Source of the DNA: a virus
Reading direction: 5' to 3' (one strand)
Virus record (IMG/VR): IMGVR_UViG_3300032249_000022
Span: 1 to 29,568 of that record
Length of the DNA stretch: 29,568 nt
Part shown: positions 2,366-27,441 of the stretch, one piece after another
Layout: each line of letters begins with the position of its first letter
How positions within the stretch are numbered: the stretch's first letter is position 1
Position numbers and translations under genes: made by a program
Notes under the pieces: model-generated
Told to the model about the DNA's origin: nothing
Seen by the model: the letters and a program-made list of their open reading frames with translations, nothing else
Databases searched by the model: none

Positions 2366-2455
2366 TTACAGCACTTCAAGCAGTATTTTTACAGTCCAGA
2401 TGACAAGACCAGTGAGCAACACTGCTGCAACAAAAGCCTTGGCAAAGTCTTTCAT
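2366..2455 (-). CDS. 29-aa single-pass membrane protein in lysis cluster
   Basis: A very short frame starts at 2455 and encodes 29 residues, most of them hydrophobic (FVAAVLLTGLVIW, 8-20), ending in TAA. Its ATG overlaps the TGA of the preceding 59-aa gene as ATGA, and its end is 14 bases before the holin start. That places it in a tight chain: coiled-coil membrane protein, this peptide, holin, endolysin. Charged ends (MKDFAK at the start, VKILLEVL at the end) flank one membrane helix. I do not recognise a family; an accessory holin, pinholin-like or antiholin role fits the location but is inference. No recognisable Shine-Dalgarno precedes it, so reinitiation is likely. Confidence 0.55.
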   Translation of the reverse strand: MKDFAKAFVAAVLLTGLVIWTVKILLEVL

Positions 2456-2631
2456 TTTGTCAACCACATGGCAGAAAAAATTACACCAGCCATAGATACA
2501 ATCATTACCCCTGCTGCCGTAACAATTACACCTTCAAGCCGCTTTAGCCTTGCATTAATTTGCTCATAGCGGAAGGCGCAAACTTGTTCGTGGGTAGACA
2601 GTCTTGCGTCTGTTGCGTCAATTGTGTTCAT
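2452..2631 (-). CDS. XhlA-like/coiled-coil lysis accessory membrane protein
   Basis: This 59-aa frame begins six bases after the glycosyltransferase stop. Residues 1-33 are polar and helical with heptad spacing (YEQINARLKRLEG). Residues 35-56 are a membrane helix (VIVTAAGVMIVSMAGVIFSA). A short coiled coil followed by one C-terminal helix is the architecture of XhlA-type haemolysin/holin-accessory proteins and of several small phage lysis proteins. It overlaps the 29-aa gene as ATGA and lies directly upstream of the 3TM holin. There is no clear ribosome site; it is probably translated by reinitiation after the double stop TAG TAA. Architecture and position support a lysis role; the family name is tentative. 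Confidence 0.65.
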   Translation of the reverse strand: MNTIDATDARLSTHEQVCAFRYEQINARLKRLEGVIVTAAGVMIVSMAGVIFSAMWLTK

Positions 2632-2637
2632 GATTTA

Positions 2638-3720
2638 CTACACAGTCAAAGGTTGTGGGAATTCGCCTGTTGTCATGTAATGTAAATTGCGCTCTAAGCG
2701 AATATCTTGCGGAGCCAATTCTAAAGCCTTTTGGCAAAGCTGAACAGCCTCGTCTTTTAATCCAAGATTCCAAGCAGCAATTGATGCCAAGTCCCAAGGC
2801 TTTTCACCCCAAACTTCAGGATCCATTGTATATACAGCTTGTTTGTCAGTTATTTGTAAAGCAGACTTTGCCGCTGAATAACTTTCAGCCCACATACTGT
2901 GCCGATAACAAATCATTGACAACTCAACCCAAGGCTCACGAGTGCCTGGAGCTTCAGCAACTGCCAGTCTAAACCATTTGATGGCTTGGTGGGTGTCGTT
3001 TAGTTCAGCATAGGCTTTACCAAGCAATCGCATCGCATAGGCTCGTTCATTTTGCCAAGTTGCTTCTGGCATAGCCAAATACTTGTTGAGCGCCTCTATA
3101 GACTCTTGCCAACGAGAATAGAACGTCAATTCACGGGCATGGTAGAAAGCATTGCGAGGGCAATACGGGTCTTCTTTTACCGCCAACTCAAGCAACGGCA
3201 TATATTGACCACGCGATTTAGTTGGGTCAGGATGATGGCTCACCAGCAGCATATCCGTGTGTGCGTACACCTCTTGAATGCGACCGTCAGGACGAGGGTA
3301 TTCGTGCACACTATGCCACCATCTGTATCCCTTGCGATGGTGGATTTTTTCGTAAAAGAAACTGATCCCGCAACCCCAGTCAAACTTATAACGCAGACGA
3401 GTGGTGTTCTCTTGCCATACGCGCTCAACTTCCTCACGCCATCCCGGTTCTAGCACCTCATCCAAATCAAGGGAAATGCAGACATCGTAGTCACCGGGGA
3501 TTAGTGCCAGTGCAGCATTTCTTGCAAGATCAAAACGCCAAGGTGTAATGCAAATATCATGCACTTTTGCGCCACACTCAATGGCTTTTTCAACAGTTTT
3601 GTCTGTTGATCCAGTATCTGCAATCAAAATTAAATCCGCATCTTTTGCAGAGTCGCAAAATCTTTGGACAAACTGTTCTTCATTTTTGCTGATTGCATAA
3701 ACACAAATTTTTAATGTCAT
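2638..3720 (-). CDS. family 2-like glycosyltransferase with C-terminal TPR repeats
   Basis: The 360-aa product starts at ATG 3720, chosen because AAAGGA lies seven bases upstream and the start overlaps the HNH stop as ATGA. An in-frame start 18 nt upstream is inside the HNH gene. The N-terminal domain has GT-A features: CVYAISKNEEQ (6-16), ADTGSTDKT (34-42) and a DxD metal site at D85-L86-D87 (SLDLDEVL). From about residue 190 the sequence becomes helical repeats of TPR type (AFYHARELTFYSRWQESIEALNKYL, shown here in parts AFYHARELTFYS and WQESIEALNKYL; later LLGKAYAELNDTHQAIKWF and AWNLGLKDEAVQLCQKALEL). It should move a sugar from a nucleotide-sugar donor. Whether it modifies the virion or host surface glycans is unknown. 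Confidence 0.85.
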   Translation of the reverse strand: MTLKICVYAISKNEEQFVQRFCDSAKDADLILIADTGSTDKTVEKAIECGAKVHDICITPWRFDLARNAALALIPGDYDVCISLDLDEVLEPGWREEVERVWQENTTRLRYKFDWGCGISFFYEKIHHRKGYRWWHSVHEYPRPDGRIQEVYAHTDMLLVSHHPDPTKSRGQYMPLLELAVKEDPYCPRNAFYHARELTFYSRWQESIEALNKYLAMPEATWQNERAYAMRLLGKAYAELNDTHQAIKWFRLAVAEAPGTREPWVELSMICYRHSMWAESYSAAKSALQITDKQAVYTMDPEVWGEKPWDLASIAAWNLGLKDEAVQLCQKALELAPQDIRLERNLHYMTTGEFPQPLTV

Positions 3721-4205
3721 GTCTTGTTCCTTTTCCATTCGCCAAAATACTTGTTTTCAGCTTCATACCTTGCTTTTGCCGCATCTTCAAGCGTCTTAAA
3801 TGTTCCAAGATATTTTTGCTTGTGATCTACTTTAATGTAAGAACGATAGTTTTGATACTTTTTGCTCCAGCAAACACCAGCAATTCCTGTCGTGTTGGCT
3901 TTTGACAATTTTAAATTCTTGCCGTTTTGAGAATTTGTTGCCTCCCTCAAATTGCAAATTCTATTATCAGTTGGAACTCCATTGATATGGTCAATTTGGT
4001 CTTTGGGCCAAACACCATGATGCAATGCCCAAGCAATTCTATGTGCTTGCCATCGTTTTGGGCCAATGCAAATCCCAAGATAGCCACTATGTAACAATGT
4101 GCCAGCAGCCTTCTTTTTAATCATGCCTTTACCTTTGGCAATCCAAAAAATCAAGCCCGTCTCCGGGTCGTATTGAAGAAGTAATTTTAAGGCGTCTATA
4201 TTCAT
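3717..4205 (-). CDS. HNH homing endonuclease with AP2 DNA-binding domain
   Basis: This 162-aa protein has the standard two-part layout of free-standing phage homing endonucleases. The HNH nuclease region includes H55-R56 and IDHINGVPTDNRICNLREAT (71-90), where D72, H73, N75 and N81/N85 are the expected metal and catalytic positions. It is followed by an AP2-type DNA-binding domain (GIAGVCWSKKYQNY, 107-120; KYLGTFKTLEDAAKARYEAE, 131-150). It should nick or cut at or near its own insertion site and spread by homing. No clear ribosome site precedes it; translation may depend on the stranded start codon at 4254. It sits exactly at the beginning of a glycosyltransferase gene, whose first ten codons appear in diverged form upstream. 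Confidence 0.92.
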   Translation of the reverse strand: MNIDALKLLLQYDPETGLIFWIAKGKGMIKKKAAGTLLHSGYLGICIGPKRWQAHRIAWALHHGVWPKDQIDHINGVPTDNRICNLREATNSQNGKNLKLSKANTTGIAGVCWSKKYQNYRSYIKVDHKQKYLGTFKTLEDAAKARYEAENKYFGEWKRNKT

Positions 4206-4224
4206 GCTTTGAATTATGCCAAAC

Positions 4225-4254
4225 TTTGCTAATGGCGTAAACCGCTATTTTCAT
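4225..4254 (-). pseudogene. stranded 5' end of a second glycosyltransferase gene
   Basis: Twelve bases after the stop of the glycine-rich adhesin lies an ATG at 4254 with AGGA six bases upstream. It begins the peptide MKIAVYAISK. The intact glycosyltransferase begins MTLKICVYAISK, so the two share VYAISK, and the last 18 nt of both agree at 15 of 18 positions with mainly synonymous changes. After this point the frame runs into the HNH cassette and stops at 4129 (41 codons in all) without any resemblance to a glycosyltransferase. I read it as the original gene start left behind when the endonuclease cassette and a diverged glycosyltransferase arrived. A short real peptide cannot be excluded. 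Confidence 0.6.
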
Positions 4255-4265
4255 GTTTTGTCCTG

Positions 4266-6107
4266 TTAAAAGAATGCAAAAAAGTTGCCTTTGTATTCTG
4301 AAACAACAGGGGCAACAACAGTGTAGGTAAGTACAACAAGGCCACCAGTGCCTGATCCACGAACGCCTGCTGCCGCCGCAACTCCAGAAGCTGCACCGCC
4401 ACCACCACCGTAACCACCAGCATTTCCGCCGTTACCAAACAGTGTTGATGATGAGCCGATACCGCCACCACCACCGCCAGAACCGGGGCCGTAATTTACG
4501 CTTCCAGCCGTCCATGCGATGGGCGTGGTAATGTTAAATTGGCTACCCAAGCCACCGTGTCTAAATTGAGGGTTTGCAGTTGATGTTGACGCAGAGCCAC
4601 CGCCGCCGCCAGAACCCATTGATCCATTGCCCGCAACAGCTGAGGTTGTTCCCCCTGAACCACCAGCCGTACCTAGTGGGCCTATGCCCCCCAAGCCTCC
4701 TGTTGTGCTGGTGGTTGTCCCGCCTATACCAGAGGCATTTCCGTTTGTGCCTCCACCGCCACCGCCACCCCCTTGTGTTGATGTTTCGCCAGCAGTCGAT
4801 GCGGACCCGCCGTTCCTGCCTACACCACTTGGGCCAGCAGCACCACCACCACCGCCGCCACGCTGTTTGTTTGTGGTTGAGGTTTGAATCTGCGATGCGC
4901 CGCCGTTGCCGCCACTAAACTTCGTTGAAGCACCACCAATACTTAATGCCGAGCTACCGCCCGTGCCACTCAACGCGCCTTTGGCAAGCACGCCTTCTGC
5001 TTCGGTGGTTGGGGCTGTGCTACCCAACGCCCGAAACCAACTGTCAGCGGTTGAACCCCAAACACTTGCGCCCGGCACGTTGGCGTATCCAGCACCCGTT
5101 GATGGGCTGGTAATCGTAGATTCTGCATACGCACCACCACCGCCTCCGTTTTCTAAAACGCCAGTGTATTTGCCGCCTTGCGATCCGGGGCCAATAGCTT
5201 GAGCCTTTAAAGATGTCACGCCTTGCGGTATGTACACTGGACGAGTTGAAGTAACTATTTCAACGTAAGTGCCAGCTAATGGCGCAGAAGTGTAGGTAAT
5301 AACAATGATGCCTTGGCCTAACGTGCCGCCACCACCCGCCCCAAAGCCACCAGCTTGCCCCATAGTGCCGCCGCCATAAACACCGCCGCCGCCAGAACCA
5401 AGGGCATAAGTGTTTCCCGCAAAATCCGTCCAAACAACCTCACCACTTCCATTTCCGCCTGTTGCGCCCGGTGCGCCGCCACCGCCGCCACCGCTTCCGT
5501 TTGTGCCGTTACCGCCTGTTGGTGAGCCAGCAGTTCCCCCTGCGCCGCCTGCGTTTCCTGAACGGCTTTCACCGCCTGCACCGCCTACAAGCAGTGTAGC
5601 GTTTTGTCCGTTTCTAGTGCCTGCTACGTTACTGCTTGATGCGCCGCCACCGCCGCCCCTATTAGTAAAATAATTACCGCCATTTCCTCCGGGGCCAAAA
5701 GGCCCACCGCTACCGCCCCCTGCGGCTTGAGTGACAGAACAAACATCACCGTCACCAGAAGTGCCACCAGCATAAAAATTACCCACGCCAGCAGTGTAAA
5801 TACTGTTTGCGGCTTGGCTTGTTGGCGCAACAGACCCACCTTCAGCTTTTACACCTTGCGTAGATAAAGTTGGTTCGCTATTTGTATTTTTGTTAAACCA
5901 TGTAGAATTGCCAATAATGCCAGCGCCTATTCGTATAAATACAATAGAACCCGGAGTTAATGCAACATCAACAGATTTGGCGTATGAGCCTCCATGATTA
6001 ACATCGAAAGCATTGCCCCGACCTGCGCCAATAGCTTCAATAGTAGCTGTCTGGCAGTCTGCTGGCACAAACCATCGTGTGCCCGATGTAAGAACGATGG
6101 TTGGCAT
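4266..6107 (-). CDS. glycine-rich tail adhesin with two tandem Gly-rich domains
   Basis: The 613-aa product is dominated by glycine runs (GGGGGG, GGNGG, GTGG). It consists of two similar units. Unit 1 (about 1-275) opens with TSGTRWFVPADCQTATIEAI and closes with GQGIIVITYTS. Unit 2 (about 280-600) opens with TSTRPVYIPQGVTSLKAQAI and closes with TGGLVVLTYTV. Such glycine-rich domains occur at the tips of phage fibres, where packed polyglycine helices display receptor-contacting loops; S16 gp38 is the structural precedent. The gene starts by a TAATG overlap with the 62-aa gene and is the last gene of the fibre cluster, fitting a receptor-binding role. The domain type is well supported; the receptor is unknown. 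Confidence 0.82.
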   Translation of the reverse strand: MPTIVLTSGTRWFVPADCQTATIEAIGAGRGNAFDVNHGGSYAKSVDVALTPGSIVFIRIGAGIIGNSTWFNKNTNSEPTLSTQGVKAEGGSVAPTSQAANSIYTAGVGNFYAGGTSGDGDVCSVTQAAGGGSGGPFGPGGNGGNYFTNRGGGGGASSSNVAGTRNGQNATLLVGGAGGESRSGNAGGAGGTAGSPTGGNGTNGSGGGGGGAPGATGGNGSGEVVWTDFAGNTYALGSGGGGVYGGGTMGQAGGFGAGGGGTLGQGIIVITYTSAPLAGTYVEIVTSTRPVYIPQGVTSLKAQAIGPGSQGGKYTGVLENGGGGGAYAESTITSPSTGAGYANVPGASVWGSTADSWFRALGSTAPTTEAEGVLAKGALSGTGGSSALSIGGASTKFSGGNGGASQIQTSTTNKQRGGGGGGAAGPSGVGRNGGSASTAGETSTQGGGGGGGGTNGNASGIGGTTTSTTGGLGGIGPLGTAGGSGGTTSAVAGNGSMGSGGGGGSASTSTANPQFRHGGLGSQFNITTPIAWTAGSVNYGPGSGGGGGGIGSSSTLFGNGGNAGGYGGGGGAASGVAAAAGVRGSGTGGLVVLTYTVVAPVVSEYKGNFFAFF

Positions 6108-8858: not shown

Positions 8859-9602
8859 TCAGCCTCCAATTTTTTTAATTAAATATCCGTCCATTGGAGG
8901 ATATGAATATTTGCCATGCGACCAACCATGAAATCTGTTTTGAATAGATTTTACGTTATGCGCCTTAGCCGCTTCACGCAAAGTTCCAAAATCTCCTAAA
9001 GGCGTAACGTAAATTGCCCTTGGCTTCATCACTTTTGTTTTGCCAATTTGCGCTAACGAGATTTTTTCTCTAGTAGCATCTGATAAAGGTTTACGAGGCT
9101 GCTTGTTTTTAGTTGTTGCTCTATTTGCAGCAGAGACAGATGCAACGTGTTCTGCGCTTTTAGGCTTACCCTTTAAACCATTGGAAATTGCTTGCTTGTG
9201 AGTAGCACTAAGTGCAATGCCTTTTTTGGCCTTGCCGCCCGCACTAACGCCTTGCAAAGATGCTGAAATTTTTGCTTTAGTTTGTGCGCTTCTTTGTTTT
9301 CCAAACAAGGGGTGCTTGCTCCCCTTTAAGCCATTTCCACCATCGCCACCTTCCGTAAGATTGACAAGTGGATAAAATTTTTTCAATGCTGCAATTGCTA
9401 ATTTTTCTGCATTGAGTGCTTGTTTATTACTTAAACCAGATGCAATAATGATTGATTCATAGCCAGCTTTAGCAACGATGTTTTGCCAATGTGGATTGCG
9501 ATCTTTTTTTGATGTTGCTCGGTTTCCTGAACCTTTACCAACATAAAAAAGTTGTCCGGTGTCCAATCTTTTGTGAACATAGACATATGCGTTTACAGCC
9601 AT
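8859..9602 (-). CDS. GIY-YIG homing endonuclease with NUMOD3 repeats
   Basis: The 247-aa product has a GIY-YIG nuclease domain at the N-terminus: AYVYVHKRLDTGQLFYVGKG (5-24), a candidate catalytic Arg28 in the next segment, and a Glu at about 66 (NAEKLAIAAL). The central part contains several NUMOD3-like DNA-contact motifs (HPLFGKQRSAQTKAKIS, KPLSDATREKISLAQIGK). The C-terminus has a helix-turn-helix-like segment (TPLGDFGTLREAAKAHN). It should be a free-standing homing endonuclease inserted between two fibre genes. AGGGGA lies six bases before the ATG. A related C-terminal segment is present in the other GIY-YIG protein of this window, so the two are probably distant paralogues. Confidence 0.9.
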   Translation of the reverse strand: MAVNAYVYVHKRLDTGQLFYVGKGSGNRATSKKDRNPHWQNIVAKAGYESIIIASGLSNKQALNAEKLAIAALKKFYPLVNLTEGGDGGNGLKGSKHPLFGKQRSAQTKAKISASLQGVSAGGKAKKGIALSATHKQAISNGLKGKPKSAEHVASVSAANRATTKNKQPRKPLSDATREKISLAQIGKTKVMKPRAIYVTPLGDFGTLREAAKAHNVKSIQNRFHGWSHGKYSYPPMDGYLIKKIGG

Positions 9603-26856: not shown

Positions 26857-27426
26857 CTACACTTTAGCATTTTTCTTATTAAAAGACCAACCTTCTTTTG
26901 GCTGGACAGGATAATTCTTGTCATCCCTTTTTGCCACAAAGCCTATACATCTATTTCGCACAGTCATAATGGCGCAATTGTTTGCTTCTGCGGCAAGACG
27001 CAAAGAATGAAATTGCCCTTTTGGAGTATTCCAAGTTCCAATTGATAAAGTCTCCGAACTTTGATCGTAACGACTTCTACTGTAAGCCTTGTTTGCCTTG
27101 GCAAGGTTTTCTCTATGCTTTTGCGACAATTTTCTGCCCTTCATTAAATAATGGAATCCAGTTGGGCCTCCTCCAGCTTGCACGTTAACAAGATTTCCCA
27201 TAGGGAAAAAATACGCTATAACTTTTTTTTCAATGTCGTATGCAAGACTTTCCGACAAATTGTCTGCAATGATAAAAATTGTATAACCATCTTTTGCAAC
27301 CTCATGCCATGCCAAATTTCTTTGGCCCTTGCTTTTTGCTCGTTTTAAACACCCTTTGCCAACGTAAAAAACTGTTCCATCAGGCTTGCAATGCAAGTAA
27401 ACATAAAAGTTAGTTTTGGCGTTCAT
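26857..27426 (-). CDS. GIY-YIG homing endonuclease
   Basis: The start at ATG 27426 is preferred over a GTG at 27441, which directly abuts the terminase stop. The 189-aa protein opens with a GIY-YIG domain (FYVYLHCKPDGTVFYVGKG), with a likely catalytic Arg in KRAKSKGQRN and Glu in DIEKKVI. A NUMOD3-like motif follows (KGRKLSQKHRENLAKANK), then a DNA-binding C-terminus (TPKGQFHSLRLAAEANN). That last segment matches TPLGDFGTLREAAKAHN of the other GIY-YIG protein here. It interrupts the terminase-portal order and is best read as a free-standing homing endonuclease. Neither flanking gene looks disrupted. Confidence 0.9.
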   Translation of the reverse strand: MNAKTNFYVYLHCKPDGTVFYVGKGCLKRAKSKGQRNLAWHEVAKDGYTIFIIADNLSESLAYDIEKKVIAYFFPMGNLVNVQAGGGPTGFHYLMKGRKLSQKHRENLAKANKAYSRSRYDQSSETLSIGTWNTPKGQFHSLRLAAEANNCAIMTVRNRCIGFVAKRDDKNYPVQPKEGWSFNKKNAKV

Positions 27427-27441
27427 GCTTGCATTATACAC

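Follow-up and report, generated by a model that had tools for sequence, protein, structure and literature searches.

The WHO elements found at the FBA1 locus of Torulaspora and Lachancea yeasts combine an endonuclease gene with an end of the target gene that confers resistance (PMC7282813, eLife 2020). Their homing swaps the 3' end of FBA1, producing a chimeric, resistant gene; the displaced FBA1 fragments, truncated near the cut, begin at about one position and may serve as a second homology arm (PMC7282813). Among phages, the portion of the review PMC2988022 available to us presents SegF, SegG and MobE of T4 as free-standing homing genes beside their targets, with co-conversion of flanks as part of the T4 pathway, and reports that mobE of Aeh1 splits nrdA into two working genes. 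PMC10448857 describes HEG islands, in which homing genes stand at the edges of exchanged segments and flank cargo genes; a term search of that text returned neither glycosyltransferases nor displaced starts of targets. A literature search for end-replacing homing in phages, with most subscription journals outside its reach, found no case.

The locus studied here lies in a viral record of 29,568 bases, the whole of which we call the window. It resembles the WHO elements in that a target end appears to be replaced, and in that a displaced target fragment is truncated at about one position. However, WHO endonucleases are HO/intein-like with zinc fingers and act on a 3' end in yeast, whereas here we have an HNH-AP2 gene and a 5' end in phages. 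The window's gene has HNH_3 and AP2 in place of the HO/intein-like domain and zinc finger of the WHO family; it is thus an analogue and not a member, and no sequence kinship is claimed. With the T4 genes it shares a free-standing position adjoining the target, a probable spread by homing and co-conversion of flanks; the genes in the available portion of PMC2988022, in contrast, sit between genes, and no duplicated, truncated target start is described there. With the HEG islands of PMC10448857, it shares homing genes at the borders of exchanged phage segments.

On the minus strand of the window, an adhesin-like ORF is followed by a ten-codon remnant, 19 nucleotides, the HNH gene and a glycosyltransferase gene (GT). 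The adhesin-like ORF (4266..6107, minus strand, from the ORF list) is glycine-rich and its C-terminus reads VVAPVVSEYKGNFFAFF; Pfam and PHROG searches returned no match for it, and a scan of viral contigs with the C-terminus, a glycine-rich query, gave no confirmed relative. The sequence then runs from AGGACAAAACATG through MKIAVYAISK (4254-4225) and GTTTGGCATAATTCAAAGC to the HNH ATG at 4205. Those ten codons, the remnant (4225..4254, minus strand), have an intact ribosome site just 5'; they are separated from the HNH gene (3717..4205, minus strand, intact) by the left edge of the cassette (4206..4224, minus strand), with its promoter motif TGGCATAAT. The GT (2638..3720, minus strand, intact) belongs to a GT2-TPR type, with Pfam matches to Glycos_transf_2 and TPR and a match at 4e-101 to PHROG 13126, a beta-1,4-glycosyltransferase. 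The HNH stop TGA (3719-3717) and the GT ATG (3720-3718) overlap as ATGA, which makes translational coupling likely. A small ORF 3' of the GT (2452..2631, minus strand) forms a right flank common to relatives with and without HNH: it is 95% identical to HNH-free L006 and HNH-bearing L088, and 92% to HNH-bearing L001 (L numbers designate loci). Elsewhere in the window, the ORFs at 8859-9602 and 26857-27441, both on the minus strand, match PHROG 314 'homing endonuclease', the former also NUMOD3, and one of the two lies directly behind a terminase-like ORF; counting the HNH gene, this phage thus has at least three homing-endonuclease-like genes.

The HNH protein matches Pfam HNH_3 at 1e-16 and has an AP2-like C-terminus, a putative DNA-binding domain matched at 6.5e-4, below the Pfam cut-off. 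Its DHING and DN residues are invariant, and a dN/dS of 0.06-0.15 indicates purifying selection and rules out a dead gene. The ORF is an intact nuclease gene outside any intron or intein. I-HmuI is intron-encoded; its solved structure (PDB 1u3e) gives a weak profile match (E 0.025), and the two share the HNH catalytic domain family, the window's gene differing by its AP2-like C-terminus and by having no intron. The left edge TGG[CT]ATAATT[CG]AAAGC-ATG is kept in the nearer HNH relatives and is absent from the distant ones, and the sequence to its left varies from locus to locus. It contains an extended -10 motif, TGG[CT]ATAAT, in which TG precedes the -10 hexamer (4218-4213 in the window). Since this motif ends about 7 nt 5' of the HNH ATG, the HNH mRNA is probably leaderless. 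A scan of viral contigs with the pattern TGGYATAATTSAAAGCATG gave 15 exact matches, all on contigs that had been recognised before as HNH-GT loci; the HNH had no match in 84,980 genomes of bacteria and archaea, and a DNA search of named phages gave a single weak match of 116 bases.

The earlier note on this DNA had proposed that the ten codons are an old GT start, and this proposal holds: leader and remnant align with the leader and start of intact GTs from HNH-free loci. The ATG at 4254, with its ribosome site, is real and opens MKIAVYAISK as described, and the reported coordinates are right, as is the agreement of 15 out of 18 nucleotides between this copy, GTTTACGCCATTAGCAAA, and the GT start, GTTTATGCAATCAGCAAA. 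The alignment of leader and remnant reaches 35/39 nt with L033 (E ~5e-8), 76% over 71 nt with L059, the adhesin end lying within the alignment, and 71% over 79 nt with L005. Because many HNH-free loci align in this way, the likeness goes beyond chance. The earlier note expected HNH-free relatives to have this start fused to a full GT, and so it is in L005, L059, L007 and L043, none of them closely related to the window: the upstream gene ends in (G)NFF.FF-stop and a KIAVYAISKNE start follows 11-30 nt on. In L005, the gene 5' of the GT has a C-terminal end, VVAPPSSYLGNFFAFF, similar to that of the window's adhesin. When HNH-free sisters of the window were sought by a holin scan, no locus combining its GT and its adhesin appeared. 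In the window, the remnant ends at AGCAAA and directly abuts the HNH cassette.

Remnants are found at a few other loci. The one of L002 and L003, MTKKLKIAVSAIS, ends at AGCAA and is identical at 44/44 nt to the start of L029; in L002 it is also 91% identical over 56 nt to HNH-free L007, whose GT 3' part L002 shares. The aligned blocks of L002 have 17 nt of GT start in common, which is what an insertion that duplicates the start would produce. The remnants of the window and of L002/L003 end in the same codon, within one base of each other; the one of L095 is shorter, comprising leader and ATG (40/41 nt to L307) and ending after the ATG. The HNHs of the window and L002 are sisters, and the spacing from remnant end to TGGCATAATT is equal, so that the identical cut may be one event and not two: one site may have been broken twice, or a single insertion may have had its left arm exchanged afterwards. 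Between the two remnants, 8/27 nt differ, mostly silently, and they thus come from different functional GT alleles. Most HNH-bearing loci have no remnant, since the cassette comes right after the stop of the upstream gene. At L110 (1779-1800), the HNH ORF itself opens with ATGAAAATAGCTGTA (MKIAV), perhaps a displaced GT start that continues in frame into HNH, in a stretch too short for such a claim.

Scans of viral contigs yielded about 30 distinct relatives of the HNH (53-86% identity), each of them immediately 5' of a member of this GT family. All HNHs with an identity of at least 55%, from 30 distinct loci, lie within 15 nt 5' of the GT; below 50% identity, none of about 95 HNH genes lies directly 5' of it. 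Two distant HNHs with 35-38% identity (L052:3818-4288 and L074:7055-7525) are found immediately 3' of GTs of this family, so that the opposite side of the gene has a different HNH lineage. Mapped as a label onto the tree built from 136 GT bodies, the presence of HNH changes 17 times, at least 12 of these changes being forced by well-supported branches; from this scatter it follows that HNH moved between GT lineages. Filled and empty versions of the site can be paired: L094 with L027, L088 and L101 with L006, L091 with L030, and L002 with L007. These comparisons support the view that the HNH is a free-standing, mobile homing cassette of uncultured phages.

The cassette does not travel with a whole GT. 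HNH-bearing GTs are chimeras: their 5' 420-600 nt accompany the HNH, and their 3' part matches that of HNH-free phages at up to 97-100% identity. The identity between L002 and HNH-free L007 is 72-88% until about nt 420, then 94-100%; other breakpoints lie near 420 (L094 and L098 versus L017), 500 (L091 versus L030) and 600 (L101 versus L006). The drop in identity from 3' to 5' has a median of 16 points in HNH-bearing and 0 in HNH-free rows (Mann-Whitney p 2e-4, rows not independent); the HNH-bearing loci L103 and L106 have no drop. About 7/68 pairs of HNH-free GTs change as steeply, which shows that recombination of GTs does not require a resident HNH. One clade (100/100) unites the HNHs of the window, L002 and L091, and all three loci share the start KICVYAIS. 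However, the AU test rejects (p 1e-4) a grouping of the GT 3' parts of the window, L001, L170 and L091 into a single clade, and the 3' part of the window's GT groups with HNH-free L011/L015. Given this conflict, the window's GT looks recombinant as well, the breakpoints being mapped in relatives, as the window is without a close one. Tree scatter, breakpoints and the AU test point to horizontal movement with co-conversion of flanks; for the window itself, this rests on the tree conflict. The idea that homing brought both the nuclease and a diverged GT is therefore kept for the mobile nuclease, and cut down for the GT: in the resolvable relatives the incoming piece is the 5' 420-600 nt, and the 3' part is resident.

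The start of the GT is associated with the presence of an HNH. The common start A[VI]YAIS is found in 78/106 HNH-free GTs, versus 0/29 HNH-bearing ones, which have ten other versions; both counts leave aside L271, whose contig ends 105 bases upstream, and the second also L283, because its start, which reads CVNAIS, was registered at a wrong position. The raw Fisher p of 6e-14 ignores kinship; independent pairs go 5.5 times in the same direction and 0 in the opposite, with a median p of 0.03. This association fits a nuclease that reads conserved codon positions, so that resistance would need amino-acid changes. The window's start MTLKICVYAISK (3685..3720, minus strand), which has the CVYAIS state common to its HNH clade, is accordingly a candidate for a cleavage-resistant version of the KIAVYAISK target. 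Whole HNH-free groups carry CVNA, CVYA or VSA starts too, and the association is thus partly phylogenetic: resistance by substitution is not the sole reading, and such starts may have appeared by drift or persisted after HNH loss. Two near-twin pairs, HNH-free L267 versus HNH-bearing L106 and HNH-free L286 versus HNH-bearing L283, have the same CVNAIS start; HNH was perhaps lost there after a resistant start had been acquired. The HNH-bearing GT of L001 (270-290) starts as MT-stop-KICVYAIS, with an in-frame stop after two codons.

We consider it probable that this is a free-standing HNH-AP2 homing gene specialised on one phage GT, whose homing replaces the 5' end of the GT by a resistant one. 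The endonuclease would cut sensitive GTs within their 5' end, at about GCN-RTN-TAY-GCN-ATH-AGY-AA/A, the slash marking a position near AGCAA that we infer from the remnant ends. The break would then be repaired from an HNH-bearing donor, with HNH and the donor's GT 5' end copied, a step seen as mosaics with tracts of about 420-600 nt in resolved relatives, while the recipient would keep its own GT 3' part. The copied start, with non-synonymous changes such as KICV..,.VSA..,.ISA.. or.VNA.., would escape cutting by the resident enzyme. If the upstream gene had no homology to offer, or if an earlier remnant served as left homology arm, the old GT start would stay before the cassette, truncated at the break; the ten-codon scrap of the window may be such a recipient start left behind.

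Other explanations must be weighed against this homing scenario. In the version of the earlier note, the HNH travels with an entire diverged GT as a two-gene unit that replaces or precedes the resident GT. Tight linkage and the ATGA overlap fit such a unit, as does the fact that identity to the window declines jointly for HNH and GT; but in the resolvable cases, the window's donor being unsampled, the foreign part is limited to the 5' 420-600 nt, and the GT 3' parts go with HNH-free neighbours, so we judge a two-gene unit unlikely. Ordinary modular exchange, in which an adhesin or GT module was swapped by illegitimate recombination, with HNH a passenger and the remnant a chance junction, would account for upstream genes that differ in nearly every locus and for the 5'/3' mosaics of a few HNH-free pairs. 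A chance junction, however, sits poorly with remnants of the window and L002/L003 that end within one base in the same codon, with an L002 whose leader/start remnant and right flank are both L007-like, with the consistent 5' drop of HNH-bearing rows, and with a start state that tracks HNH; we regard such an exchange as improbable.

The two remaining explanations concern the remnant and the insertion itself. The earlier note suggested that the ten codons act as a functional leader, or uORF, from which HNH is translated by reinitiation, and the ATG at 4254 does have a good ribosome site. The frame of the remnant, however, is not that of HNH: it runs across the HNH ATG, stays open to 4129 and ends 76 nt into the HNH gene. 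The stretch from the remnant to the HNH ATG contains a conserved promoter motif, and most HNH-bearing loci do without a remnant. Reinitiation is thus very doubtful, and that suggestion is abandoned. As for an intron- or intein-type insertion in a GT gene that is still continuous, a GT start does stand on both sides of HNH, but it is duplicated, not split, the flanks are about 20 nt, and an Rfam search of 3000-4900 gave no intron match. This agrees with the earlier note, which saw no group I intron here: the catalytic RNA core of such an intron was not found in that interval, the intein is rejected along with it, and we give the insertion practically no credence.

The homing scenario may be carried further, though more tentatively and with some doubt on our part: the HNH genes could be a 'start-replacing' homing lineage, an independent mirror-image of the yeast WHO elements, that carries a resistant GT 5' end and keeps the displaced start as a portable left arm. 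With such an arm, the element could enter any sensitive GT, whatever the gene upstream. At this locus, filled and empty sites occur in nature together with leftovers of the target's end, and reading the target, the self-resistance and the repair tracts of a phage homing gene from them requires no cultured system. Homing of this kind would explain the 5'/3' mosaicism of this GT family, and would mean that the end-replacing homing known from yeast arose in phages too, with an unrelated nuclease. If true, start-replacing elements would drive the diversity of a phage-borne glycosyltransferase.
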